Part shown: positions 1-22,017 of the stretch, piece after piece
Numbering within the stretch: position 1 is the first letter of the stretch
Layout of the letters: each line of letters starts with the position of its first letter
IMG/VR virus record: IMGVR_UViG_3300005511_000075
Location: 1-25,434 of that record
Source: a virus
DNA: 25,434 nt
Direction: 5' to 3' (one strand)
Position numbers and translations under genes: made by a program
The notes under the pieces: model-generated
What the model was told of the DNA's origin: nothing
Databases searched by the model: none
Seen by the model: only the letters and a program-made list of their open reading frames with translations

Positions 1-99
1 TTGGTGCAGCTGAACCTACATTCAGGCCCTTGACTGGCGGGGCTGACAGCTGTCAGCCCGGCTCAAGTGGCGTTTGAGAGCCCATAAAAGGCACAGAAA
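1..99. other. Non-coding left edge with late-promoter copy A
   Basis: No gene is visible in this stretch. It holds dyad copy A (40-59), a 5-bp inverted repeat CTGAA/TTCAG (10-14 and 21-25) overlapping the proposed -10 element, and an imperfect hairpin (60-66 with 74-82) just after the fibre-assembly stop. That hairpin has no T-run on the minus strand, so I do not call it a terminator. A gene reading leftward presumably starts beyond base 1. Confidence 0.5.
13..59 (-). promoter_or_regulatory. Putative activator-dependent late promoter, copy A
   Basis: Bases 40-59 are a perfect 20-bp palindrome, GGGCTGACAGCTGTCAGCCC. On the minus strand the hexamer TAGGTT (18-13) lies with its first base 31.5 nt from the dyad centre and is followed by C12. 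The same offset carries CACATT at copy B and TAAAGT at copy C. The palindrome follows the last fibre gene and points out of the window. In a P2-ordered tail module the next operon would begin with the sheath and tube genes, so this copy is likely to drive them. Binding by the Mor-like protein is inferred from copy number, placement and spacing. Confidence 0.5.
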
Positions 100-12161: not shown

Positions 12162-12620
12162 TTAGGCGGCGGACGTCAAGCCGTTGGCCTTGCGGTACTC
12201 GTCTTCAGTCAGACCGAGCATCTTCATGACGTCGCGCTCTTCGGCCGAAAGCGTGTGGACCTGGTCGGGCAGGTTCTTGCCGTCCAGGTTGCTTGCACCG
12301 AGGCCGACGCCAAGCGTCTCGATCAGCTTGGTGACCTGCGCCAGGCCGTCGTCGGACGCGCAGAGCGCCTCATACTGCGGGCGCTGCGCCGGTGTGATCT
12401 TCTTTGCCTTCAGCGCGCCTTCGATGAGGGCGTCGACCTTCTCCTTGCGGCTGGTGGCCTTCAGGCTTGCCAGCTCGGAGTTGGCAGCGGCCAACGTGTC
12501 GAGCGTCTGCTGGTGAACGGCAGGCTCAATACGCTTGGCGAGGTCGCCGATCGCCGAGAGGCAGGACGCCTCGCTGGCTTCAGGGGCAAGTTTGAGGGCA
12601 GCAGCAATGGCCTTCAGCAT
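12162..12620 (-). CDS. Nested scaffold protein (Mu Z-like), internal in-frame start
   Basis: Met183 of the protease gene begins MLKAIAAALKLAPEA. It is preceded by GGAG (12630-12627) six bases before the ATG, a near-ideal ribosome-binding site inside a coding sequence. Initiation here would give a 152-residue, mostly helical protein identical to the C-terminus of the protease. Mu (I/Z) and lambda (C/Nu3) use exactly this arrangement to produce the scaffold separately from the protease. The start falls at the boundary between the protease domain and the scaffold region. Production from this start is inferred from the site and the family precedent. Confidence 0.68.
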   Translation of the reverse strand: MLKAIAAALKLAPEASEASCLSAIGDLAKRIEPAVHQQTLDTLAAANSELASLKATSRKEKVDALIEGALKAKKITPAQRPQYEALCASDDGLAQVTKLIETLGVGLGASNLDGKNLPDQVHTLSAEERDVMKMLGLTEDEYRKANGLTSAA

Positions 12621-13166
12621 GTTCGTCTCCGAGTTTGAAGGAAGCGCCGACGCGACGGCCGGCATGGAAATTCCGGGCGCGGCAACGAGCGCCGCCGAGT
12701 GCAGCCAGGTTGCGCGGCCGGTCTCGTCCGTCTTCAGCGACGGCGAGATGTAGCGGTGCGAACGGGCGGTGAGGATTTCGAGGCCGGCGGCCAGCCAAGA
12801 GACACGACCATATAGGCCATCAGGGCGGGCCTGCAGTTCCTCGATCCAAGCGACGGCGGGAGCTGCCTCACCGAACATCGCCTTTTTGACGGTGGCGTGA
12901 TCGAGATCGAGCGGCACGGAGACCTTGTCGGCATTGAAGCGCTCGACGAGAACCTCCGGCTCAACGATAAAGTTGCGACCGTCGCGACTGGTGAATGCGC
13001 CGCGCGGCGTTAGCTTGATCCAGGCCGGGCCGGTTGCCTTGTCGACAGCCTGGGGATCTCCGGCGAAAACGTCGATCGTGGTGACGCTGGTCATGGCGGC
13101 TGCAGCATCCTCGATCGAGGCTGCGAGGCAGGAAATCAGGAGGGCGGTTGCGGTGCGTTTGATCAT
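12162..13166 (-). CDS. Mu gpI-like prohead protease with scaffold domain
   Basis: A 334-residue protein of the Mu-like protease family (Mu gpI). The N-terminal half is the protease: LTPRGAFTSRDGRNFIVE near residues 52-69, PLDLDHATVKK near 85-95, and RSHRYISPSL near 135-144, corresponding to the family's 'DxDHA' and 'YRYISP' motifs. The C-terminal half (from about 183) is helical, alanine/lysine-rich scaffold, ending in LTEDEYRKANG. It cleaves scaffold and itself during head maturation. No ribosome-binding site precedes the ATG at 13166, and a late promoter lies just upstream, so the message may be leaderless or start at Met25 (13094). The first 24 residues resemble a signal peptide but are probably not one. 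Confidence 0.85.
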   Translation of the reverse strand: MIKRTATALLISCLAASIEDAAAAMTSVTTIDVFAGDPQAVDKATGPAWIKLTPRGAFTSRDGRNFIVEPEVLVERFNADKVSVPLDLDHATVKKAMFGEAAPAVAWIEELQARPDGLYGRVSWLAAGLEILTARSHRYISPSLKTDETGRATWLHSAALVAAPGISMPAVASALPSNSETNMLKAIAAALKLAPEASEASCLSAIGDLAKRIEPAVHQQTLDTLAAANSELASLKATSRKEKVDALIEGALKAKKITPAQRPQYEALCASDDGLAQVTKLIETLGVGLGASNLDGKNLPDQVHTLSAEERDVMKMLGLTEDEYRKANGLTSAA

Positions 13167-13173
13167 GGGGCAG

Positions 13174-13220
13174 AATGTGCCAGATCAAACAGCAGCGGCG
13201 GGGCTGACACCTGTCAGCCG
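13174..13220 (-). promoter_or_regulatory. Putative activator-dependent late promoter, copy B
   Basis: The dyad GGCTGACACCTGTCAGCC (13202-13219) has two 8-base arms. The 23 bases 13201-13223 are identical to those at copy C. On the minus strand the hexamer CACATT (13179-13174) lies at the same offset as at copies A and C and is followed by C and T. If the centre is at -43.5, as for Mu Mor, transcription would start near 13167, immediately before the gpI-like gene, the position of Mu's PI promoter. Confidence 0.6.
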
Positions 13221-13356
13221 TGAGATGAAAGGCCCAAAGGCGTTTCCGGCCGCTTCGTTCCCCAACATACAGCGAGTGCGTAAAAATCAAAGCCCTTTCA
13301 AAGCCCGTACGCGCGTTTTTAGGGGCGACTACGAGTATCCGACCATCCGAGCCCCC

Positions 13357-13385
13357 TTGCGCGCGTCTGTGGCGATTTCTATGGT
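13357..13385 (+). promoter_or_regulatory. Promoter of the plus-strand secreted-protein gene
   Basis: TTGCGC (13357-13362) and TATGGT (13380-13385) are 17 bases apart. The start site would fall near 13392, followed by GGAGG (13404-13408) and the ATG at 13415. Each box matches the sigma70 consensus at four of six bases. It gives the inserted gene its own transcription, independent of the phage late operons. Confidence 0.45.
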
Positions 13386-13414
13386 CGCCCGGAATGTTGC
13401 CTTGGAGGGGTAAA

Positions 13415-13849
13415 ATGAAGAGACTTGCTGCCGCCGCGTTGGTGGCCATCGTTGCCGTCATACCGGCAAGGGCTGCGGACTGGCCGCCGGCCGACGATTA
13501 CGTGAACTCGCTCGTGAACTGCAGCGCGAGCACGGACGCTGCAAACTGCGAGTACACGCGGTCGGTCTGGGCAAAGCAGTATGGCGATGCCATCACCGGC
13601 GACTACCAAGGCCAGCGCAATGTCTCCTTCTGTTTGAGCACCGGCTGCAACAAAGCGATCATTGAGAACCACATCCTTGGATGCGCTTGGCGCCAAGTGA
13701 TCCTCAAAGCCGGTCATCTTCAGATCGATCAAACGGACGTCTCGAACCTGAAGCACTTCTGTGGCGATGAGCTGCTCGACGATGCGGGCCGCCGAGCCGC
13801 CAACGCCCAAGCGACACGCCTGCTCGGTATGTTGCCGCAGACGCGGTGA
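13415..13849 (+). CDS. Secreted six-cysteine protein, candidate moron
   Basis: This is the only convincing plus-strand gene. It encodes 144 residues with a classical signal peptide (residues 1-20, MKRLAAAALVAIVAVIPARA, cleaved before ADW). The mature part has six cysteines (36, 45, 73, 78, 90, 116), which suggests three disulphides in the periplasm or outside. Motifs include SFCLSTGCNKAI near 71-82 and GCAWRQVILKAG near 89-100. GGAGGGG precedes the ATG. An upstream in-frame ATG/TTG would place residues before the signal peptide and is rejected. The opposite orientation, own promoter and position between the muF and protease genes mark it as a lysogenic-conversion cassette. I do not recognise a functional family; a host-fitness or exclusion role is a guess. 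Confidence 0.8.
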   Translation: MKRLAAAALVAIVAVIPARAADWPPADDYVNSLVNCSASTDAANCEYTRSVWAKQYGDAITGDYQGQRNVSFCLSTGCNKAIIENHILGCAWRQVILKAGHLQIDQTDVSNLKHFCGDELLDDAGRRAANAQATRLLGMLPQTR

Positions 13850-13850
13850 T

Positions 13851-13879
13851 TTGCGCATTTCAGAAAGACCACCTATATT
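13851..13879 (+). promoter_or_regulatory. Strong candidate promoter before the structured element
   Basis: TTGCGC (13851-13856) and TATATT (13874-13879) are 17 bases apart. The -10 also contains CTATAT, the usual alphaproteobacterial form. The expected start, six to eight bases later, coincides with the first base of the inverted-repeat element at 13887. It shares its -35 box and spacing with the promoter at 13357-13385. Confidence 0.5.
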
Positions 13880-13886
13880 CGCACTT

Positions 13887-13969
13887 AGCGTGGCAGCGAA
13901 GTCCGTTGGCCTCGATGCCCACTGGAGGGAGCCCGGATAGGCCGGGATGCGGTCCCTCCCTGCCACGCT
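13887..13969 (+). ncRNA. Candidate structured small RNA
   Basis: The 83-base element is closed by a perfect 10-bp inverted repeat, AGCGTGGCAG (13887-13896) and CTGCCACGCT (13960-13969). Stacked directly inside it is a 7-bp stem GGAGGGA/TCCCTCC (13924-13930 with 13953-13959), which encloses a 5-bp stem CCCGG/CCGGG (13932-13936 with 13942-13946). The left branch (13897-13923) can form a short GGC/GCC hairpin, giving a Y shape. A good promoter places its start at the first base. It ends exactly where the convergent muF gene ends. No T-run follows, so the 3' end is uncertain. It is not a tRNA: there is no T-arm. The function is unknown, and it could instead be a processing or termination structure. 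Confidence 0.4.
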
Positions 13970-15193
13970 TCATTCACCAAATGGCCAGTCTCTTCCAAGC
14001 CGATCGAACTCGGCTCTGATTTCCTTGCTGTTCTTCTGATGCAGGGAATTGATCCGCAGGTATCCGTTGTTTGAGACGCTCGCGAACGCACGCCAGAACG
14101 CGTTGCCTATCTTGTAGTAAAGTGTCCGGACGCTATCCTTGCCGTTGCGGTCAGGCATGATAATGGCGTTGGCAATCATTTCCGGCAACACAGCGAAATC
14201 GTCGGCGGACATTTTGTGCCGCTTCATGCGCTCGGCAATGGCCTCGCCGGTGATCGAAACGACGCGTGACCGGGCGCCGAGATCGTCGGCGAGCCGCTCG
14301 GAAATGCCCGCAGGTAACCAGACTTTCTGTTCCAGTCGCGGCGCGAGCTGCAGATAGGGATCGCGCCAAAGATCGTCGAGGATCCTGGTGGCATCGTCCA
14401 CCGGCGCCACGGCAAGCTTTTCTTCCAGGTTCTGGATCAGGGTTGAGGCGCGTGCCAGTCCGGCATTCGTCTGCCAGCCGGGATCGATGCCTGGGGAAAC
14501 CATGGTCACCTCGCCGGTGCGGCGATTGCGATGCGGAACGTCTGGACCGAGATCGGGCGGGTTGTCGCGATAGATAATGCCGCCCTCTTGCGACTCGCGG
14601 CCGAGCAGGCTTGCGGCTTCGCGCGCCGAGATTTGACGGACCTGGCACTTGCAGCCCCAGCCATTCGGCGGCCAGTGCGTCTTCCAGAAGGGATGATCGA
14701 CAGGAAGGATGATGCCAACCCACGCAAGGTGCTCTTGCCGAGGGTCGGTTGACGTCGTGCGCAGATAGAGGATGTAGGGCAGCGCGCGCTTACTGCGCTG
14801 TGCCCGTTCCCATTGACCGGCAGCGCGGGCCGAATTCGCGTTCGACCAGAATATGTTCTTGAGGCGCCGTGTCCGTGAGAAGTCGACCATGCGGTCGGGC
14901 TGCTCGCCAGTCGGGTCGGCGACCATGCGCGGACCCCACCAGCCCTGCTTTGTGAGTTCGGCCTGGATGTCTTCCTTCCAGCTCTCGAAGCCTTTGCCGG
15001 TTCGGATTGCCTCGGCAATACTGTCGCGGAAGCCGGTGAGCAGCTCGGCCTCAGTCGCCTTGGCAACGGTGAAGGCGTAAGCATGCTCCTCGCCCCATAC
15101 GTCCAGCCAGGAGAATGCCGGCTTCAGGGTTTTGCCTTCGAAGTAGCCGGTCACTTCCTTGGGTACGGCAAAGCCCTTGCGGATCTCTGCCAC
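13970..15193 (-). CDS. MuF minor head protein with C-terminal PBECR2-like nuclease domain
   Basis: A 407-residue protein. Residues 50-190 are the Mu F-like head morphogenesis domain, with the hallmark run DPRQEHLAWVG (150-160) and HPFWKTHWPPNGWGCKCQVRQIS (start 167, end 189). In Mu, gpF (gp30) sits inside the head near the portal. Residues about 305-395 look like the PBECR2 domain (Barnase-EndoU-ColicinE5/D-RelE fold). Matching features are RHKMSADDFAVLPEMIANA (325-343), then TLYYKIGNAFWRAFAS and LRINSLHQKN. Such domains occur as toxins fused to MuF and may be injected with DNA. The start is GTG, two bases after the portal stop; no upstream ATG fits. No protein immunity gene is evident next to it. 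Confidence 0.85.
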   Translation of the reverse strand: MAEIRKGFAVPKEVTGYFEGKTLKPAFSWLDVWGEEHAYAFTVAKATEAELLTGFRDSIAEAIRTGKGFESWKEDIQAELTKQGWWGPRMVADPTGEQPDRMVDFSRTRRLKNIFWSNANSARAAGQWERAQRSKRALPYILYLRTTSTDPRQEHLAWVGIILPVDHPFWKTHWPPNGWGCKCQVRQISAREAASLLGRESQEGGIIYRDNPPDLGPDVPHRNRRTGEVTMVSPGIDPGWQTNAGLARASTLIQNLEEKLAVAPVDDATRILDDLWRDPYLQLAPRLEQKVWLPAGISERLADDLGARSRVVSITGEAIAERMKRHKMSADDFAVLPEMIANAIIMPDRNGKDSVRTLYYKIGNAFWRAFASVSNNGYLRINSLHQKNSKEIRAEFDRLGRDWPFGE

Positions 15194-15195
15194 GC

Positions 15196-16845
15196 TCAGT
15201 CCACCGTATCGCCGATGCCACGCGCGATCGCCGTCAGCCTGGCAAGGCGCTCGGCCATCTTCGAAGCATCCGGGCCGGCGGTTTCAATGACCTTCAAAGC
15301 CTCTTCGAAGCTCGATGCCGTTGACAGGATCTCGGCGATCGGCTGGACGATCGGCCGGGCCATCTCCTCCCAATCGTTGGCGGCCGACGCAAACAGGGCA
15401 TCCACTTGGTCGAGCGCGTCGGGCTCGCCAGCCTCGGCCGCAAGCAACGACGTGCAGGCGCCGCAGCGGCAGGCGCGGCGATGGTCAAACACGATGGCGG
15501 AAAGAGCGGCGGTCTTTGACTTGCGCTCATCGTTTGGCAGGGGCTTGGTGACCGGCTGCACCGTGGCACCTGGCTTCGCTTCCGCTGGCTCGGCCGTCTT
15601 GACGGTTGCGATGAGTAACTCGTCATCATCGCCGGGATCCGACAAGCCGATCTTTTCGCGGATCTCCGACTGCTTCACGCGCAGGCCGTACGGCATCATC
15701 TTGGCGACGGCATCGGTCAGCGCCGCGACGTCTTCGGGGTCCGGTACCAGGAGCTGGACGGTCGGGTAGTGTTCCTGCGGCCCGAAGTTGAGATCGACGA
15801 AAGGCCGGATCAGGTCGCGGTTGGCCGTGTAGGCGAGCTGCTTGCCATCGGCGCGCAGAATGTCCAGCCGGACTTCGTTGTGGATCTTCGCCTGGCCGAG
15901 TGATGAGCCATCGTCGGACGTCATGGTCTGGCCAACGACAAGCTTGGAGATCTGCTTGTCGACGTAATCCAGCAGGCCACCGAAGACCGCCGCGCCGTTG
16001 TTGCCGCTGACTTCGTGAAACTCGACATCCATGCCCTGCGGGATGATGGCGGCGGCGTCGTTGGCGATGGAGGTGACAGCCTTCAGCAGCGTGCGCTTGT
16101 CTGTCGCGCTGGCATTGGCGTTGTACTTGCCGACGCGCAGCGGCATGCCATAGACCTCGGAGAAGGCCGCCCAATCCTGCAGCGTGAATTGCTGGATCAG
16201 GTATGCCCAGGCCGCCGGCCGCGCCATGCCGCGCCGGAGCGGCAGCCCCATTTTGGTGCGCGGCATGTGGCGCAGGAATTTCGCCTGCGGCAATTCCTCG
16301 CCCTCGATCGAGCCATCGACGGCCAGGCGCAGCTCACGTAGCTTCAGGCGATCGAGCTGAAAGAACCGCGGATCCCGCTCGATGTAATCGACCGGTCGCA
16401 ACGCCTTGCGTTCGTACTCCCACATCATCTCGACGACGGCATAGCCTTTGGAGATGCCATCGGTGAGATTGCCGAGGGCGTTGTCGAAGCCGTCGTCCTT
16501 GACCAGCTCGGTGACCGCATCGACGATCTTGCTGTCGGCGTCATTCGCCTCGATCGTCGCGTCGATGCCTTCCAGCGCCAGGCGGCGCGTCTGCAGCTGC
16601 GACGCATAGTGAAGGTACCGCTCTTCCATTTCCTCGGCGAGGGTCAGGTAGTTGCGGGCATCGCCGGTGGCGGCGTCGCGTAGGATTGAGCCGAGTCGTT
16701 CCGGGGTCAGGCCGGAAGCGACGCGCTCCTCGTGGACGCGGCGGACGCCGGCGACGGTCGGAACAGCGATCTCTTCGGAGAGAACCTGGATGACGATCGG
16801 CGTGCCGTCTGGCCCGAGGATCGATGATGTGCGGGTGCTTACCAA
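15196..16845 (-). CDS. Portal protein (DUF935, Mu gp29-like)
   Basis: A 549-residue protein of the DUF935 family, the portal of Mu-like phages. It forms the dodecameric ring through which DNA enters and leaves the head. Recognisable parts are an N-terminal LTPERLGSILRDAATGDARNYL-type segment near residues 46-67 and a central region with LPLRRGMARPAAWAYLIQQFTLQDWAAF (starting about 205). Others are FHEVSGNNGAAVFGGLLDYVDKQISKLVVGQT near 285-315 and QPV-to-CRCGAC near 459-464. The last 85 residues are helical and may contact the minor head protein encoded next. The start overlaps the terminase end by seven bases. The length matches Mu gp29 (about 510). Confidence 0.92.
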   Translation of the reverse strand: MVSTRTSSILGPDGTPIVIQVLSEEIAVPTVAGVRRVHEERVASGLTPERLGSILRDAATGDARNYLTLAEEMEERYLHYASQLQTRRLALEGIDATIEANDADSKIVDAVTELVKDDGFDNALGNLTDGISKGYAVVEMMWEYERKALRPVDYIERDPRFFQLDRLKLRELRLAVDGSIEGEELPQAKFLRHMPRTKMGLPLRRGMARPAAWAYLIQQFTLQDWAAFSEVYGMPLRVGKYNANASATDKRTLLKAVTSIANDAAAIIPQGMDVEFHEVSGNNGAAVFGGLLDYVDKQISKLVVGQTMTSDDGSSLGQAKIHNEVRLDILRADGKQLAYTANRDLIRPFVDLNFGPQEHYPTVQLLVPDPEDVAALTDAVAKMMPYGLRVKQSEIREKIGLSDPGDDDELLIATVKTAEPAEAKPGATVQPVTKPLPNDERKSKTAALSAIVFDHRRACRCGACTSLLAAEAGEPDALDQVDALFASAANDWEEMARPIVQPIAEILSTASSFEEALKVIETAGPDASKMAERLARLTAIARGIGDTVD

Positions 16846-18455
16846 TGCCGTCTCCCGTATGCATGGTCGTCGTCGTCATCGCCGCCGGCGGCAGCCATGA
16901 GGGACGCAACTGTCTGATAGTCGTACTCGGTCCACTGCTGGCGGCTGGCGTAGTGCGCCAGGGCCAGGCCGATGGCGAAGTCGCCATGGCGTTTCTTCGA
17001 GCCCTGGCCGGTACGCAGATCCGGCACGCGCGGCACGCCGGCGATAACCTTGACGGTGCGCAGGTCCGTCAGGTGTTCATCATCCTTGATGAGGGCAATA
17101 GCATCGTCCTCGAAGGCGGCTTTCAGCGGCGGCATGTTGATGCGGTACCAGTCGGTCGAAAACTTGATGGCCTCGACTAGGCCGTAAGGGTGATCCGCGT
17201 CACGCAAGCCGAACAAGCGCCCCATGTCTTCGGCGACGGTCCAGCCCATGCCTGTCGCGTCGAAAGCGGCTCCCACCAGGCGCGGTGCGCCTTCCAAGAT
17301 CATCCGCGTGATCAGCTTCTGCTCGTCGCCTGGCACGTTGCGCATTTCCACCGTCAGCTCCTCCTCTCGCTTGAGGAGGCGGGAGACAGAAAGCAGGGTG
17401 GCAACGGAGAGATCGGCTACGCGAGCGAAGTCGAAACCAAAGGCGTGCCGCTTGGAGCGATCCAGGCGAGCGAGTGCAGTCTTGAGGTCGAACAAGACCG
17501 GGGCAAGCAGCGCGGCTCGCTCGATGCGGTTGAGGTGAAGAAAGTTCGACGGAAGCTCCAGACGGATGACCGGCGCCTGGATCGACATACGGGCCTCGAC
17601 GAGTGGCGCGGCGAGCCAAGAGCCCGTTCCTGCAGTCGGAATGCAGAACAGCTCTTCGTCGGCACCCTCGCCATAGAAGTCGATGATCTCCTGGCGCCAG
17701 GCGGCTTCGCCTTCCGGCGTCCACTCTTTGCCGTTCACCAGGCAGATGCGCTCGTAGAGCCCTTCCTTCAGCGCCTGGTCGAAATCGATCCTGATATGAT
17801 CGTATTTCGAGCGGCCGGAAAGGATCGCCTGGATCTGCTTGTTGAACTCATTTTCGGTGCCGTCATGTGTCGAGCAGACGACGACCTGGCCGCCCCACAT
17901 GAGGAAAGCGAGTGCTGCCTTCAGCAGCTCCGGCAAGCTGTCGACGAAGGCAGCCTCGTCGATCATCACGACGCCCTGCTTGCCGCGCAGCGATCGCGGC
18001 GCCGACGAGAGCGCCAACACTTCGAAGCCGGAGGCAAAGCGAATGCGGAACGCCTGGATGGAGCGCTCGCCTTCCTTGTCGCTGTCGTCGAACAGGAACT
18101 CGTCGACCGCCGCAGCCGCGTCCATGTAGGCTCGCGCCCACATGGCGCAGGCGTCGATGAATTCGCGCGTCATCTCCTGGGAATAGGAGATGTACATGAC
18201 GTCCATGCCGCCGGCCTTCTTCTCACGGCCGGCGCGCAGGGCGGCATAGGCTGCGAAACCGAAGGTCAGGCCGATACGCCGGCTTTTCTCGATGAACAGA
18301 ACGCGGCAGGCAGCGCTTTCCAACAGCGCGATCGTGCGTGCCTGGTAGGAGAGTAGCGCCTTTGGCAGGCCAAGTTCTTTGACAAGGCCCGGCAGAACCT
18401 CGGTAGCGGTTCGCCGGGCCTCGACCCATTGTTCCTCGGTGATGGGCGCGGTCAT
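16839..18455 (-). CDS. Terminase large subunit (Mu gp28-like)
   Basis: A 538-residue packaging motor and nuclease. The ATPase domain shows a deviant Walker A, EKSRRIGLT (56-64), Walker B VVMIDEA (162-168, with the catalytic Glu) and the coupling motif CSTHDG (194-199). The RNase H-like nuclease domain supplies acidic residues in GFDFARVADLS (340-350), GAAFDATGMGW (395-405) and RHGDFAIGLA (489-498). The C-terminus ends in a run of five Asp followed by His and Arg residues. It cuts and packages phage DNA into proheads through the portal encoded next. The start forms an ATGA overlap with the small-subunit gene, so stoichiometry is probably coupled. Confidence 0.95.
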   Translation of the reverse strand: MTAPITEEQWVEARRTATEVLPGLVKELGLPKALLSYQARTIALLESAACRVLFIEKSRRIGLTFGFAAYAALRAGREKKAGGMDVMYISYSQEMTREFIDACAMWARAYMDAAAAVDEFLFDDSDKEGERSIQAFRIRFASGFEVLALSSAPRSLRGKQGVVMIDEAAFVDSLPELLKAALAFLMWGGQVVVCSTHDGTENEFNKQIQAILSGRSKYDHIRIDFDQALKEGLYERICLVNGKEWTPEGEAAWRQEIIDFYGEGADEELFCIPTAGTGSWLAAPLVEARMSIQAPVIRLELPSNFLHLNRIERAALLAPVLFDLKTALARLDRSKRHAFGFDFARVADLSVATLLSVSRLLKREEELTVEMRNVPGDEQKLITRMILEGAPRLVGAAFDATGMGWTVAEDMGRLFGLRDADHPYGLVEAIKFSTDWYRINMPPLKAAFEDDAIALIKDDEHLTDLRTVKVIAGVPRVPDLRTGQGSKKRHGDFAIGLALAHYASRQQWTEYDYQTVASLMAAAGGDDDDDHAYGRRHW

Positions 18456-19042
18456 TCGGCCTTAACCCCGAGAATTTTGGACAGGATCTCTTGCGTCGTC
18501 TCGGCCGTGAGGCCCTTGGACTTGGCAACCTGGGAAACTGCCTGCTTGGCATTCTCGGCGAATTCCGCTTCGATCTTTTGGCGGCGAGATGTCGAGATGC
18601 CCTGCGCCTGGGCGGCAGCGCGCAGCGCATTTGCAAGCGACATAGCGCCCTTGGGATCGATGCCCGCTTCGCCCTCCGACGTCAGCACTTCGAAGACCAG
18701 CGTCTTGATCGCCTCGGCGGCAATCAGGGTGAGATTGTCCGAGGCGTCGATATCCCAACTCTTGGCCAGTGTCGCAGCGATTTCACGCGTCTGGTGGAGC
18801 CGCTGCGTCAGGGTCGCAAGCTTGATGCTGTGCCGATTAAACGATGAGAAGGAAGGGATATCGAATTCCAACTCGCCTCGACGTTCTGCCTTCAGCCCTT
18901 CGAGTTGCAAGACAAAGTCGGAATAGATGTCCGTCTGAGTTCGCTCGCGCTTCTGGAGTTCACCCGCCGCCCAGGCAACGACCTCGGCGCACTCGCTTGG
19001 GAGTTGCTCGATGAGGTTTAGGCGTCCTCGACCTTGCGCCAT
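18452..19042 (-). CDS. Terminase small subunit candidate (DUF3486, Mu gp27-like)
   Basis: A 196-residue protein of the DUF3486 family. The N-terminus GRGRLNLIEQLPSECAEVVAWAAGELQKRERTQTDIYSDF (about 4-43) is characteristic, with the family's 'LP-x-x-x-x-x-L-x-x-x-L' pattern. A FSSFNRHSIKL segment follows near 63-73. The rest is helical. It is encoded immediately upstream of the large terminase, as Mu gp27 is, and should recognise DNA for packaging. I chose the ATG at 19042, one base after the preceding stop, over an in-frame upstream start inside the previous gene. There is some uncertainty over whether DUF3486 acts as a true small terminase. Confidence 0.85.
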   Translation of the reverse strand: MAQGRGRLNLIEQLPSECAEVVAWAAGELQKRERTQTDIYSDFVLQLEGLKAERRGELEFDIPSFSSFNRHSIKLATLTQRLHQTREIAATLAKSWDIDASDNLTLIAAEAIKTLVFEVLTSEGEAGIDPKGAMSLANALRAAAQAQGISTSRRQKIEAEFAENAKQAVSQVAKSKGLTAETTQEILSKILGVKAE

Positions 19043-19043
19043 C

Positions 19044-19343
19044 TTAGGCTCCGATCTTCGGGCGCTTGACGCCTTCGAGTTCGGTCCTGCGCTCAACATG
19101 GTCAACGCCGAGGCGCGTGATCGCGGCGACGACGATACCGTTTACGTCCGTGTTTTTCACGCCGCCGATATCGGCCAGATAACGAAGCTGCTGGCGGATC
19201 CAGTCGCGCGACCGATGGTGGCCGTAAGCGTCGAGGACGTCGGCGAGCAGGCTATCGTTCAGCCGGCCGTCCGGCTGCTCGGAAAGCGCTCGCAGAATGA
19301 CGAGGCGCGCGTCAACGGTGACAAAATCATTGTATTCGCTCAT
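19044..19343 (-). CDS. VpaChn25_0724-type phage protein, winged-helix-like
   Basis: A 99-residue protein with the pattern of the VpaChn25_0724 phage family. Seen are ARLVILRALSEQPDGRLNDSLL near residues 12-33, RDWIRQQLRYLADIGGV near 46-62, and a C-terminal ITRLGVDHVERRTELEGVKRP near 75-95. The pattern of three helices and a beta hairpin is that of a winged-helix DNA-binding fold, and such proteins sit before the terminase genes in Mu-like phages (Mu gp26 position). It may help packaging site recognition. It overlaps the DUF2730 gene in an ATGA junction. Confidence 0.75.
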   Translation of the reverse strand: MSEYNDFVTVDARLVILRALSEQPDGRLNDSLLADVLDAYGHHRSRDWIRQQLRYLADIGGVKNTDVNGIVVAAITRLGVDHVERRTELEGVKRPKIGA

Positions 19344-19705
19344 GCCGCCGAACTACCCTTCATCAAGAAATCTTCAACGCGCGCAACGGTGCGCGCCATT
19401 CCCTCCTGGCTAGTTTCCATCCGCCCGAGTTTGCCTTCGAGCCGCTCGATCGCGATCCGCATCGACATGACAGCCTCGGCGTCAGGAAGATGTTTGATGT
19501 CGCTCTCAACACTCTGGACGCGCCTTTCGAGCGCCGAGAGCGTTGCCAGGAATTGCGTCTTCTCAACACTGTCCTGCTTTCGAAACTCGCTTAGATCACT
19601 GGCGGTTTTCTTCGCGCCGGAGGAGATCACGTGCCAGATCGAAGTGCCGACAGAGATGACTAGGGCAAGGAGGCCGAACCAGTCTTTGAGGGGTCCTATT
19701 TCCAT
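19340..19705 (-). CDS. DUF2730-like membrane-anchored coiled-coil protein
   Basis: A 121-residue protein with one N-terminal transmembrane segment (about residues 8-28) and a long helical, coiled-coil-prone remainder, for example LSALERRVQSVESDIKHL near 57-74. This layout, and the position between lysis and terminase genes, fits DUF2730 (Mu gp25-like). The role is unknown. The ATG at 19705 shares its first base with the preceding stop (TAATG). In-frame upstream starts lie within the zinc-protein gene and are rejected. Confidence 0.72.
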   Translation of the reverse strand: MEIGPLKDWFGLLALVISVGTSIWHVISSGAKKTASDLSEFRKQDSVEKTQFLATLSALERRVQSVESDIKHLPDAEAVMSMRIAIERLEGKLGRMETSQEGMARTVARVEDFLMKGSSAA

Positions 19706-19926
19706 TAACGGCGTCCCTTGCTGCTCGTTTCGAAGCGCTCCTGGCAATGGATGCATCGGCGGGCAGACGGCAGCGCCCGGCGCCTGGTCTCGGCGATCTC
19801 GCCGCCACAATCATCGCACTCAATGTTGCCTTCCAGCTTCAGAGAGGCAGTAGCGCGCTTGATCTGCGCCTCGCGCTCTTCCTCGGCGCGGATCTCCGCT
19901 AGATCGAATAAGGCGTTCCCGTTCAT
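19705..19926 (-). CDS. DksA/TraR-type C4 zinc-finger protein
   Basis: A 73-residue protein with a helical, acidic N-terminus and a C4 zinc finger formed by Cys37, Cys40, Cys58 and Cys61 (CDDC and CIHC 17 residues apart). The surrounding GGEIAETRRRALPSARRCIHCQERFE is diagnostic of the DksA/TraR family. Full-length members bind the RNA polymerase secondary channel and alter promoter choice. This short form resembles TraR, which acts without ppGpp. The ATG at 19926 overlaps the Rz1 stop in an ATGA junction. It could tune host or phage promoters late in infection, but that is inference. Confidence 0.82.
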   Translation of the reverse strand: MNGNALFDLAEIRAEEEREAQIKRATASLKLEGNIECDDCGGEIAETRRRALPSARRCIHCQERFETSSKGRR

Positions 19927-20204
19927 GGCGTGCCCTCTACGGCCGCGACACATGCCGCGCGACGCGCTTCGCCTATGTTGCGGCCGGTGCGATCATGCGC
20001 CCATCCTTGCCAGGTCTCGTCCTCGGAGAAGTCGCGGGCGAATTTCGGCGAGAGCGGCGGCGCCGGGATCTTCACTTCGGGCGGTAGCTCAGGTCTGACA
20101 AGACGCGTCACGACGATCGGCGGCTCGGCTTTCCGCTCAGTCAGGGAGCAGCTGGATGCGGCGAGCGCTAAGACCGCAACCGCCACCATCGGGAAGGGCT
20201 TCAT
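19923..20204 (-). CDS. Rz1: Outer-membrane spanin (o-spanin lipoprotein)
   Basis: A 93-residue lipoprotein with a short signal sequence and the lipobox A-S-S-C, Cys19 being the lipidated residue. The mature part is proline-rich (RPELPPEVKIPAPPLSP near 37-53), typical of Rz1 proteins. The gene begins inside the Rz gene in another frame and overlaps it by 68 bases, a classic embedded/overlapping Rz/Rz1 pair. The o-spanin joins the i-spanin to fuse inner and outer membranes after the endolysin has acted. The host must therefore have an outer membrane. The C-terminal part after residue 55 is longer than in lambda Rz1. Confidence 0.85.
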   Translation of the reverse strand: MKPFPMVAVAVLALAASSCSLTERKAEPPIVVTRLVRPELPPEVKIPAPPLSPKFARDFSEDETWQGWAHDRTGRNIGEARRAACVAAVEGTP

Positions 20205-20496
20205 TTTGTTTCTCTCTGTCTTCTAGCTGCTGTTCGGCCTGGCGAACCTGCTCGCTCGCCGTGGCTTGGATTTTGAGGGTTGCTTTCGCTTGATCAGCAA
20301 CTTGTCGGTTCGCCTCGGCGTCAGCCTTTTCGAGCTTGGCCTGCCACTTCGCGTTCGCTGTCTCGGTGGCGGTCGCTGCCGCCTCATCGAGCATGGAGTG
20401 GAACTCGCGTAGGCCGAGGTAGGCGATGCCGGCGGCTGTAACGAGCAGCACGCCGGCGATGATGAGTGCGACAATCGGCTTGGTGAACATCTCCAT
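20137..20496 (-). CDS. Rz: Inner-membrane spanin (i-spanin)
   Basis: A 119-residue protein with an N-terminal transmembrane segment (about residues 7-27). A long periplasmic helix rich in Ala, Glu, Gln and Lys (about 30-105) follows, as in Rz i-spanins that form coiled coils. The end GLSARRIQLLPD resembles the usual 'GLS-x-x-R-x-x-LL' tail of Rz proteins. It overlaps the o-spanin gene and starts one base into the stop of the holin candidate (TGATG). Confidence 0.82.
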   Translation of the reverse strand: MEMFTKPIVALIIAGVLLVTAAGIAYLGLREFHSMLDEAAATATETANAKWQAKLEKADAEANRQVADQAKATLKIQATASEQVRQAEQQLEDREKQNEALPDGGGCGLSARRIQLLPD

Positions 20497-20801
20497 CAGC
20501 GCACCTCGCCGACACCGGCGCCCGGCTGGGCGCGAGCGTCGTAAGGGGGCGGTGGGCCACCATATGGAGAATTGGCGACCTCGAAATCCTTGGAGCCGTA
20601 GTGGCGATGGGCGCCGATAAGCACGGCGATCATCGCGCAGAGGCTCGGCACGAAGACAGGCGCGATCGCAACCGCTTCCTGAGAACCGCGAAAGGCGGCG
20701 AGCGCAATGCCGACCAGGATGAACCAGGACAGCACGAAGCTGATCCAGTTCCAGCGCCTGGTCATTGTGTAAGAGGGCTTGGCTAGAGGATCACGCCTCA
20801 T
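20496..20801 (-). CDS. Two-TM protein, holin candidate
   Basis: A 101-residue protein with two hydrophobic helices, about residues 16-37 (WNWISFVLSWFILVGIALAAF) and 47-68 (IAPVFVPSLCAMIAVLIGAH). A proline-rich polar tail follows. It sits between the endolysin and spanins, the usual holin place. The ATG at 20801 lies 11 bases inside the endolysin gene and has GCGAGG upstream; a later ATG at 20765 is an alternative and would start just before the first helix. No holin family motif was identified, so the call rests on topology and context. Confidence 0.65.
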   Translation of the reverse strand: MRRDPLAKPSYTMTRRWNWISFVLSWFILVGIALAAFRGSQEAVAIAPVFVPSLCAMIAVLIGAHRHYGSKDFEVANSPYGGPPPPYDARAQPGAGVGEVR

Positions 20802-21510
20802 TGCGGGAAACCTCGCCTGCAATGTTCACGCGCACTCGTCCACCGGCAGGGTCGCCGCCGGTTCGTGGCCAGCGGATGCCGACGCAACGGCTCTTGGCGA
20901 CTGCCGAGAGCTTGACGCGGTTCGACTGGTTGCCGCCGAGCACCAGGTAATTGTCCTGATCCTCGCCCACGTAGAGCCCGACATGGCCGCCACCAGGACG
21001 TTGGAAAACGAGAACAGCACCAAGGCAGGGCGCCGAAAGCGACATGCCGAACCTGTTCCATTCAAGGGCACCGAGCGGATTGGCGGGGAGCTTCTCCTGC
21101 GGCAAGACCGCACCAAAGCAATGAGCCATGAAGAGCCCGCACCAGGGCGTGTCGTCATTTGTGAAGAAGCCCGCAATCCAGCCACCAAGCGCGCGCCCCC
21201 AACCGATGATGGTCGGGTTCGATGCCGGGCCGGGCACTTCGGTGAGGCCGATGAAGCGTCGGGCTTCACGCATCCAAACCGGCTCGGCTGGAATTTCGGG
21301 AGCGGCAACGACCTTGACCACTCGGCCTTTCGGCTCAACGCGGAGCGCCTGGACGGTTGCTTCGTCGGCTTGGCCGGTGGGCGGCAATCCTTCGGCTGTC
21401 TGAAAACGCTTCAACGCCTCGATCGAGGCGCGGCCAAACACGTTATCAACTACGCCGTCGTAGGCACCAAATGCCCGCAGGCGCGTGTTTAGCCAGAAAT
21501 TGAAATCCAT
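20791..21510 (-). CDS. Endolysin: peptidoglycan-binding plus TIGR02594/NlpC-P60-like domain
   Basis: A 239-residue lysis enzyme. Residues 5-58 form a peptidoglycan-binding domain 1 (FGRASIEALKRFQTAEGLPPTG near 25-46). Residues 78-216 match the TIGR02594 cysteine-peptidase-like family: DTPWCGLFMAHC with the likely nucleophile Cys124, GGGHVGLYVG with His176, and GGNQSNRV with Asn194. It should cleave the peptide part of host peptidoglycan. I start at the ATG at 21510. A TTG 15 codons upstream (21555) lacks an RBS and would cross a strong hairpin. It is the first gene after late-promoter copy C and a terminator-like hairpin. Confidence 0.85.
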   Translation of the reverse strand: MDFNFWLNTRLRAFGAYDGVVDNVFGRASIEALKRFQTAEGLPPTGQADEATVQALRVEPKGRVVKVVAAPEIPAEPVWMREARRFIGLTEVPGPASNPTIIGWGRALGGWIAGFFTNDDTPWCGLFMAHCFGAVLPQEKLPANPLGALEWNRFGMSLSAPCLGAVLVFQRPGGGHVGLYVGEDQDNYLVLGGNQSNRVKLSAVAKSRCVGIRWPRTGGDPAGGRVRVNIAGEVSRNEA

Positions 21511-21520
21511 GTGGCGCCCC

Positions 21521-21545
21521 AAAACAAAGCGGCCGATCGGCCGCT
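21521..21545 (-). terminator. Terminator-like hairpin before the endolysin gene
   Basis: An 18-bp perfect palindrome, AGCGGCCGATCGGCCGCT (21528-21545), is followed on the minus strand by TTGTTTT (21527-21521). This is a good intrinsic terminator. It lies between the Mor-like gene and the endolysin, and downstream of the proposed late start site near 21556, so it could stop early read-through or attenuate lysis transcription. Confidence 0.6.
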
Positions 21546-21562
21546 CAATATGCAATGGGGAG

Positions 21563-21609
21563 ACTTTAGGGGAGGTGCCCGTTGGGCGCGGGCTGACACC
21601 TGTCAGCCG
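21563..21609 (-). promoter_or_regulatory. Putative activator-dependent late promoter, copy C (lysis operon)
   Basis: The dyad GGCTGACACCTGTCAGCC (21591-21608) has flanks identical to copy B over bases 21590-21612. On the minus strand TAAAGT (21568-21563) lies at the same offset as the elements at A and B and is followed by C and T. It is 13 bases past the stop of the Mor-like gene and ahead of the lysis operon, the place of Mu's lys promoter. Confidence 0.6.
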
Positions 21610-21621
21610 TGACGGGGGAGG

Positions 21622-22017
21622 CTAGAAAAGCGAGCCCTGTTCGTCGTCGTCCTTCTTCATGCGAAATATTGTGCGTTCATGCAAGCCCGATATTTGAGCC
21701 GCGTCGCGGGCGCTCTTGCCGGCATTCAAGGCGTCAGCCGCGCGCCGGCGGGCTGCCTTCAATATCGAGGCTGGTCCAAGCGGGATGACTTCCCGCTGGA
21801 CGCCCTTCAGCTTGCCGTCGCCATCGAGGACGGCAAGCCCCCTGCAGATCCGATCGGCGAGTTCGAAGCCGAGCAGATCCGTAAGCCAGTGACCGTCTTC
21901 GGCCCGAGGCGGAATGGAAACGCGGATGCCGCCATGGCTCTGCGCAATCGCCAGAGCAGTTTCGGCGTTCGTAATCTCGGCGATGTCCGCCAGAATACCA
22001 GGGAGAGAGCTGGTCAC
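21622..22017 (-). CDS. mor: Mor-type late transcription activator
   Basis: A 131-residue protein of the Mu Mor/C family. The N-terminal half has LPGILADIAEITNAETALAIAQSHGGIRVSIPP (residues 5-37), equivalent to Mor's dimerisation region and its 'G-x-R-V-Y-I-P' strand. The C-terminal half carries the helix-turn-helix: LNAGKSARDAAQISGLHERTIFRMK (97-121). Mu Mor activates the middle promoter and C the late ones; only one such gene is seen here, so this protein may activate all late promoters directly. The start is GTG, overlapping the previous stop (GTGA); the gene ends the early operon. The dyads at 41-58, 13202-13219 and 21591-21608 are its likely targets. Confidence 0.85.
   Translation of the reverse strand: MTSSLPGILADIAEITNAETALAIAQSHGGIRVSIPPRAEDGHWLTDLLGFELADRICRGLAVLDGDGKLKGVQREVIPLGPASILKAARRRAADALNAGKSARDAAQISGLHERTIFRMKKDDDEQGSLF

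Follow-up and report, generated by a model that had tools for sequence, protein, structure and literature searches.

The 25,434-nucleotide viral sequence IMGVR_UViG_3300005511_000075 of IMG/VR (the window, by which we mean that whole stretch) carries three exact copies of an inverted repeat, GGCTGACA-NN-TGTCAGCC, that are very probably the operators of a single Mor/C-type transcription activator encoded beside one of them. Judging from sequence comparisons, a dimer of this protein would bind each dyad as a substitute for a -35 element and so switch on three late promoters, those of the lysis genes (Plys), of the head genes beginning with gpI (PI) and of the tail sheath operon (Psheath). The original prediction had read the dyads as the late promoter elements of a Mu-like phage and the neighboring gene product as their activator; our analysis supports that interpretation, with the Mor/C family match being remote and binding and activation being predicted.

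Three dyads and one activator gene

Nearly all genes of the window lie on the minus strand. The full 18-bp form of the dyad, GGCTGACANNTGTCAGCC, is exact at copy A (positions 41-58, minus strand, GGCTGACAGCTGTCAGCC), copy B (13202-13219, minus strand, GGCTGACACCTGTCAGCC) and copy C (21591-21608, minus strand, likewise GGCTGACACCTGTCAGCC). No fourth copy was found in the window even when up to three mismatches were allowed, a tolerance at which shuffled windows gave a mean of 0.11 dyads and never more than one. Copies B and C have the minus-strand 23-mer TCACGGCTGACAGGTGTCAGCCC in common. Copy B lies 36 nt upstream of the start codon (ATG at 13166) of a gpI-like gene, and copy C is located between the lysis genes and the stop codon, 13 nt away, of a gene encoding a 131-residue protein (21622-22017, minus strand, GTG start). 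Copy A is found 42 nt past a tail-fibre-assembly-like gene, close to the contig end, the next gene being beyond the window. The original prediction had counted three dyads and no others, had noted the identity of B and C over 23 bases and had seen only one Mor/C-like gene, that beside copy C; all of this proved correct.

By profile comparison the 131-residue protein is a remote relative of the Mor/C family. It matches phrog_836, annotated as late transcriptional activator, at 3.3e-14, and the same family is matched by both Mu Mor (1.2e-10) and Mu C (2.1e-11). Of 80 relatives, 52 have a Pfam Mor match, the best at 3e-8, and alignment of the activator family to a Mor/C alignment by hhalign gave an E value of 9e-9 over 109 columns with a probability of 95.7. 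The predicted structure (mean predicted local distance difference test score, pLDDT, of 85) has a C-terminal helix-turn-helix (HTH) composed of helices 103-110 and 114-125, and the HTH is supported by Pfam matches and by fold comparison. The sequence profile matched 1rr7, the N-terminal dimerisation fold of Mor, at an E value of only 0.14. A search for a second Mor/C gene gave none in the annotated phage POA1180 or in 19 relatives with a length of 34.7 kb or more, whereas Mu yields two in the same search; extra weak Mor/C fragments were seen in one relative (G036). The system thus resembles the Mu late regulon, but the cascade differs in that the two steps from Mor to C were not encountered.

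The dyads recur at the same three promoters in relatives

A scan of viral contigs for the exact dyad gave 80 stretches, and many of these shared a Mu-like contig with others. As these contigs had been recruited by one exact dyad, only additional copies count as evidence. When dyads with up to two mismatches were counted over whole contigs of at least 34.7 kb, 16 of the 19 contigs with a phrog_836 activator had three dyads, one had four and two had two, whereas the two contigs of that length lacking the activator had one dyad each. Naming of the downstream genes by similarity to POA1180 and to the window proteins gave tail sheath at 19 sites, gpI protease at 18 and endolysin at 16. At four further sites the downstream gene was another head gene, at a distance of about 0.9-1.2 kb, and no gene could be named for 30 sites, many of them near contig ends. 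The equivalents of copy A in relatives lie 10-95 nt before the tail sheath gene, and in the nearest relative, L051 (on one contig with L084, and with an activator that is 88-89% identical), the distance is 78 nt. Because these equivalent sites precede the sheath gene, window copy A most likely drives the sheath operon.

Dyads with different sequences occupy the homologous positions in two annotated phages. Ochrobactrum phage POA1180, the activator of which is 38% identical, has three exact copies of CCTGACA-N-TGTCAGG, located before the endolysin, protease and tail sheath genes (0.08 in shuffles). The paper describing POA1180 makes no mention of promoters, activators or inverted repeats (PMC5492332). 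The inducible siphophage RcapMu, whose activator is annotated for its similarity to Mu gp21 (C), carries two exact copies of CCGGAC-N4-GTCCGG, one after the activator gene and one before the protease gene, and two copies agree with a siphophage that lacks a sheath.

Host chromosomes do not carry the dyad in many copies, a possibility that had been raised with the original prediction. A search of ten host genomes (4-7 Mb) with up to one mismatch placed the dyads almost exclusively in prophages, each prophage usually having two or three, with at most about three sites elsewhere. The other comparative expectations also stood: relatives carry dyads upstream of late units, the lysis and gpI sites keep the proposed map parallel with Mu Plys and PI, the unit past copy A is the sheath operon guessed by analogy with P2, and the recurrence of the dyad tracks the activator family.

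Dyad and activator lineage change in concert

Relatives of the activator were gathered together with their flanking sequences from genomes and viral contigs, and 67 loci (not dereplicated) that had gpI within reach were searched de novo, with no motif given, for a palindrome common to the region after the activator stop codon and the region before gpI. A shared palindrome scoring at least 7 was found in 50 of the 67 loci and in none of 926 control pairs, whereas at a score of at least 6 the figures were 60 loci and nine controls. One of the high scores, that of L065, is an artefact of overlap between the two searched regions. The dyads vary between phages: GGCTGACA-NN, CCTGACA-N, CCCTGACA-NN, CGCTGACA-N or -NN, CGCTGCA-N4, GGGTGACG and CCCGGACA were all found. 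Within a phage the two dyads of 38 dereplicated loci agreed at a mean of 7.29 positions; the value between phages was 4.62, and an average of just 3% of the other phages provided a better match than the phage's own partner dyad. A weakly supported activator tree built without the HTH requires at least two changes of dyad spacing and at least six of the outer letters. That a pair of sites separated by 7-9 kb should change together implies one shared trans-acting factor, and the neighboring activator is the obvious candidate.

Similarity of the HTH correlates with similarity of the dyads (Mantel p 0.003). The recognition-helix arginine is changed in two clades that lack the TGACA core, to Tyr in L227 and L235 and to Asn in L229, L243 and their kin. 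This suggests a residue-base code that ties the arginine to the TGACA core, and a suggestion it stays because formal tests do not tell the HTH apart from ancestry as a whole. In three loci (L147, L149 and L204) the deviations from symmetry are identical in both sites and face the promoter in the same direction, L204 for instance having CGCTGACA..TGTCAGCC at each of the two; this hints that the half-sites are used in an oriented manner.

Promoter anatomy and a predicted leaderless gpI message

Hexamers of the form YAnnnT are concentrated downstream of the dyads. In 58 lysis and gpI sites there were 44 counts at offsets 31-34 from the dyad center, with the peak at 32-33; the best single offset accounted for 19 sites, compared with no more than eight in shuffles. 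The 15 dereplicated sheath sites gave a count of 15 at offsets 31-34. The predicted -10 elements of the window are TAGGTT for Psheath (13-18, minus strand, 22 nt past dyad A), CACATT for PI (13174-13179, minus strand) and TAAAGT for Plys (21563-21568, minus strand), the latter two resting on positional enrichment. Setting the hexamer as -12 to -7 places the dyad at -52 to -35 with its center at -43.5, the transcription starts being predicted. On Mu Pm a Mor dimer occupies a 16-bp element centered at -43.5 that substitutes for the -35 element (PMC4390567), and related dyads in the four late promoters of Mu are bound by C (PMC4287176). The dyad therefore lies at the distance from the -10 element that is used by Mor/C activators, and the predicted positions follow the layout of Mor/C-dependent promoters (dyad centered at about -43.5, then a -10 hexamer). 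A sigma-70 scan that covered copies A and B returned no site, and the host promoter consensus may differ.

The gpI-like head maturation protease gene (12162-13166, minus strand; Pfam PF10123, 2.8e-45) has its ATG on the predicted PI transcription start. Of 37 dereplicated gpI sites, 35 had an in-frame ATG at an offset of 43-47 from the dyad center, and only two had a sequence resembling a Shine-Dalgarno (SD) element before that ATG. As the ATG coincides with the predicted start and lacks an SD element, we predict a leaderless gpI mRNA in the window and in its relatives.

These results suggest the following mechanism. A single activator, the gene of which lies directly upstream of copy C, would have all three dyads as operators and would sit as a dimer on each 18-bp dyad at -52 to -35, in the place of the -35 element. 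Host sigma-70 RNA polymerase, recruited or remodelled by the activator, would then use the -10 hexamer starting 22 nt past the dyad. The three late operons would come on together, late in the lytic cycle: lysis from Plys at copy C, head genes from PI at copy B and tail genes from Psheath at copy A. With PI starting on the gpI start codon, gpI would be translated from a leaderless message.

Points against the proposed mechanism and alternative explanations

Several observations weigh against this scheme. The window protein itself scored below the Pfam Mor cut-off, so that the family link is made via relatives and profile comparison. Fold comparison (Foldseek, VIA; PDB) returned only HTH matches and no Mor chain (1RR7), a result that does not exclude the fold. 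The -10 hexamers of PI are weak (CACATT). A partial Mantel test that controlled for the N-terminal domain left no residual signal between HTH and operator, so that it does not distinguish specificity determinants from ancestry. No such dyad pair was found in Rhodobacter phage RC1, although an activator is annotated there, and a clade of four loci (L229, L231, L233 and L243) lacks the TGACA dyad and has another element in its stead. In the clade an GACMAGAAARTCTTCG-like element follows the activator gene and, where gpI is present, also precedes gpI; the recognition helix has Asn in place of Arg119.

The dyads might instead act as RNA hairpins, that is, as transcription terminators that separate the operons rather than as DNA operators. 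They do stand between operons, a T-run follows seven of 15 sheath sites and TTTT follows the RcapMu dyad. However, T-runs follow none of 39 lysis sites and two of 36 gpI sites, which is the level of control positions, and G-U wobble pairs (10) barely exceed the mirror class A-C (7), which argues that the symmetry is kept as DNA and not as RNA. Termination also leaves the -10 hexamer at fixed distance unexplained, and we regard terminators as a highly improbable account of the dyads in general. Some sheath sites may have a terminator in addition. The T-runs follow sheath-type dyads in L005, L007, L050, L056, L068 and others, as though the operator had become fused with a fibre-operon terminator.

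Many dimeric regulators typically have palindromic sites, and on that ground alone the dyads could be operators at which some other protein, a phage repressor or a host regulator, silences the late promoters. This is very unlikely, as the dyad sequence changes in step with the activator lineage, host genomes carry the dyads essentially only in prophages, and a center at -43.5 is the position of an activator (PMC4390567). That the dyads are non-regulatory sites is scarcely credible: repeated palindromes occur in packaging, transposition and replication sites, but the fixed distance to late operons, the conserved start codon and the absence of just the third copy from the sheath-less RcapMu all speak against such a role.

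Other features of the lysis and head regions

The first gene of the lysis unit (20791-21555, minus strand) is endolysin-like, with a peptidoglycan-binding domain (PF01471, 8e-13) and matches to phrog_1259 and endolysin phrogs. Its start is likely an ATG near 21510 that has a GGGG SD-like stretch. Between the predicted Plys start and this ATG, at 21518-21550, a GC-rich sequence, AGCGGCCGATCGGCCGCT, makes a perfect hairpin ahead of TTGTTTT and resembles a terminator or attenuator within the lysis leader. L082 and L084 share the stem. Sequestration of the SD element by a leader hairpin was considered and rejected, the SD element being paired at 0.63 versus 0.64 in shuffled leaders. An Rfam search of the window gave no match. 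Between gpF and gpI an opposite-strand gene (13394-13849, plus strand) encodes a protein of phrog_5882 (unknown function) with an apparent signal peptide, and is possibly a moron.

Relationship to Mu and implications

A system of this kind is already familiar from Mu, where a Mor/C-family activator gene likewise stands just before the lysis unit and C acts at Plys, PI, PP and Pmom (PMC4461284, PMC4287176). Both systems have dyads in several late promoters, with the lysis and gpI promoters at the same map positions (PMC4461284, PMC4287176). Unlike those bound by Mu C, the operators described here have 8-bp arms with a TGACA core, the third promoter is at the tail sheath rather than at P and mom, and no separate Mor gene was found. 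Mor at Pm offers a remotely homologous parallel, a dimer (predicted in our case) on an inverted repeat that is centered at -43.5 and replaces the -35 element (PMC4390567). However, Mor serves a single middle promoter, where the arms of 5 bp are separated by 6 bp, whereas here there are three late promoters, 8-bp arms and a 2-bp spacer. POA1180 and RcapMu have a comparable gene order, the same activator family and a dyad of their own at homologous promoters, and differ in the sequence and spacing of the dyad (CCTGACA-N-TGTCAGG and CCGGAC-N4-GTCCGG, respectively) and, for the siphophage RcapMu, in having two copies. What makes the present system a variant is its operator family, its wiring with a single activator, the promoter at the sheath and the predicted leaderless gpI. 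Its layout is retained by dozens of related alphaproteobacterial phages, in which the protein and the sequence of its proposed target vary jointly. No earlier description of the operator was found in the literature searched, which mostly did not cover subscription papers.

To our knowledge, nearly all work on activation by Mor/C proteins has concerned coliphage Mu. The loci assembled here provide a large comparative set of activators and operators from phages of Rhizobiales, Rhodobacterales and related hosts. We consider a broader proposal about equally likely to hold or to fail, namely that alphaproteobacterial Mu-like phages share a single-activator late regulon, the operator of which has diversified in arms, core and spacing into at least half a dozen specificities that form natural orthogonal pairs, with Arg119 reading the GAC core and the head operon starting leaderless. 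The late regulons of these phages become predictable from sequence and the specificity residues directly testable. The set would provide small, possibly orthogonal, activator-promoter pairs, and leaderless translation of a head gene is predicted across a broad group of phages.

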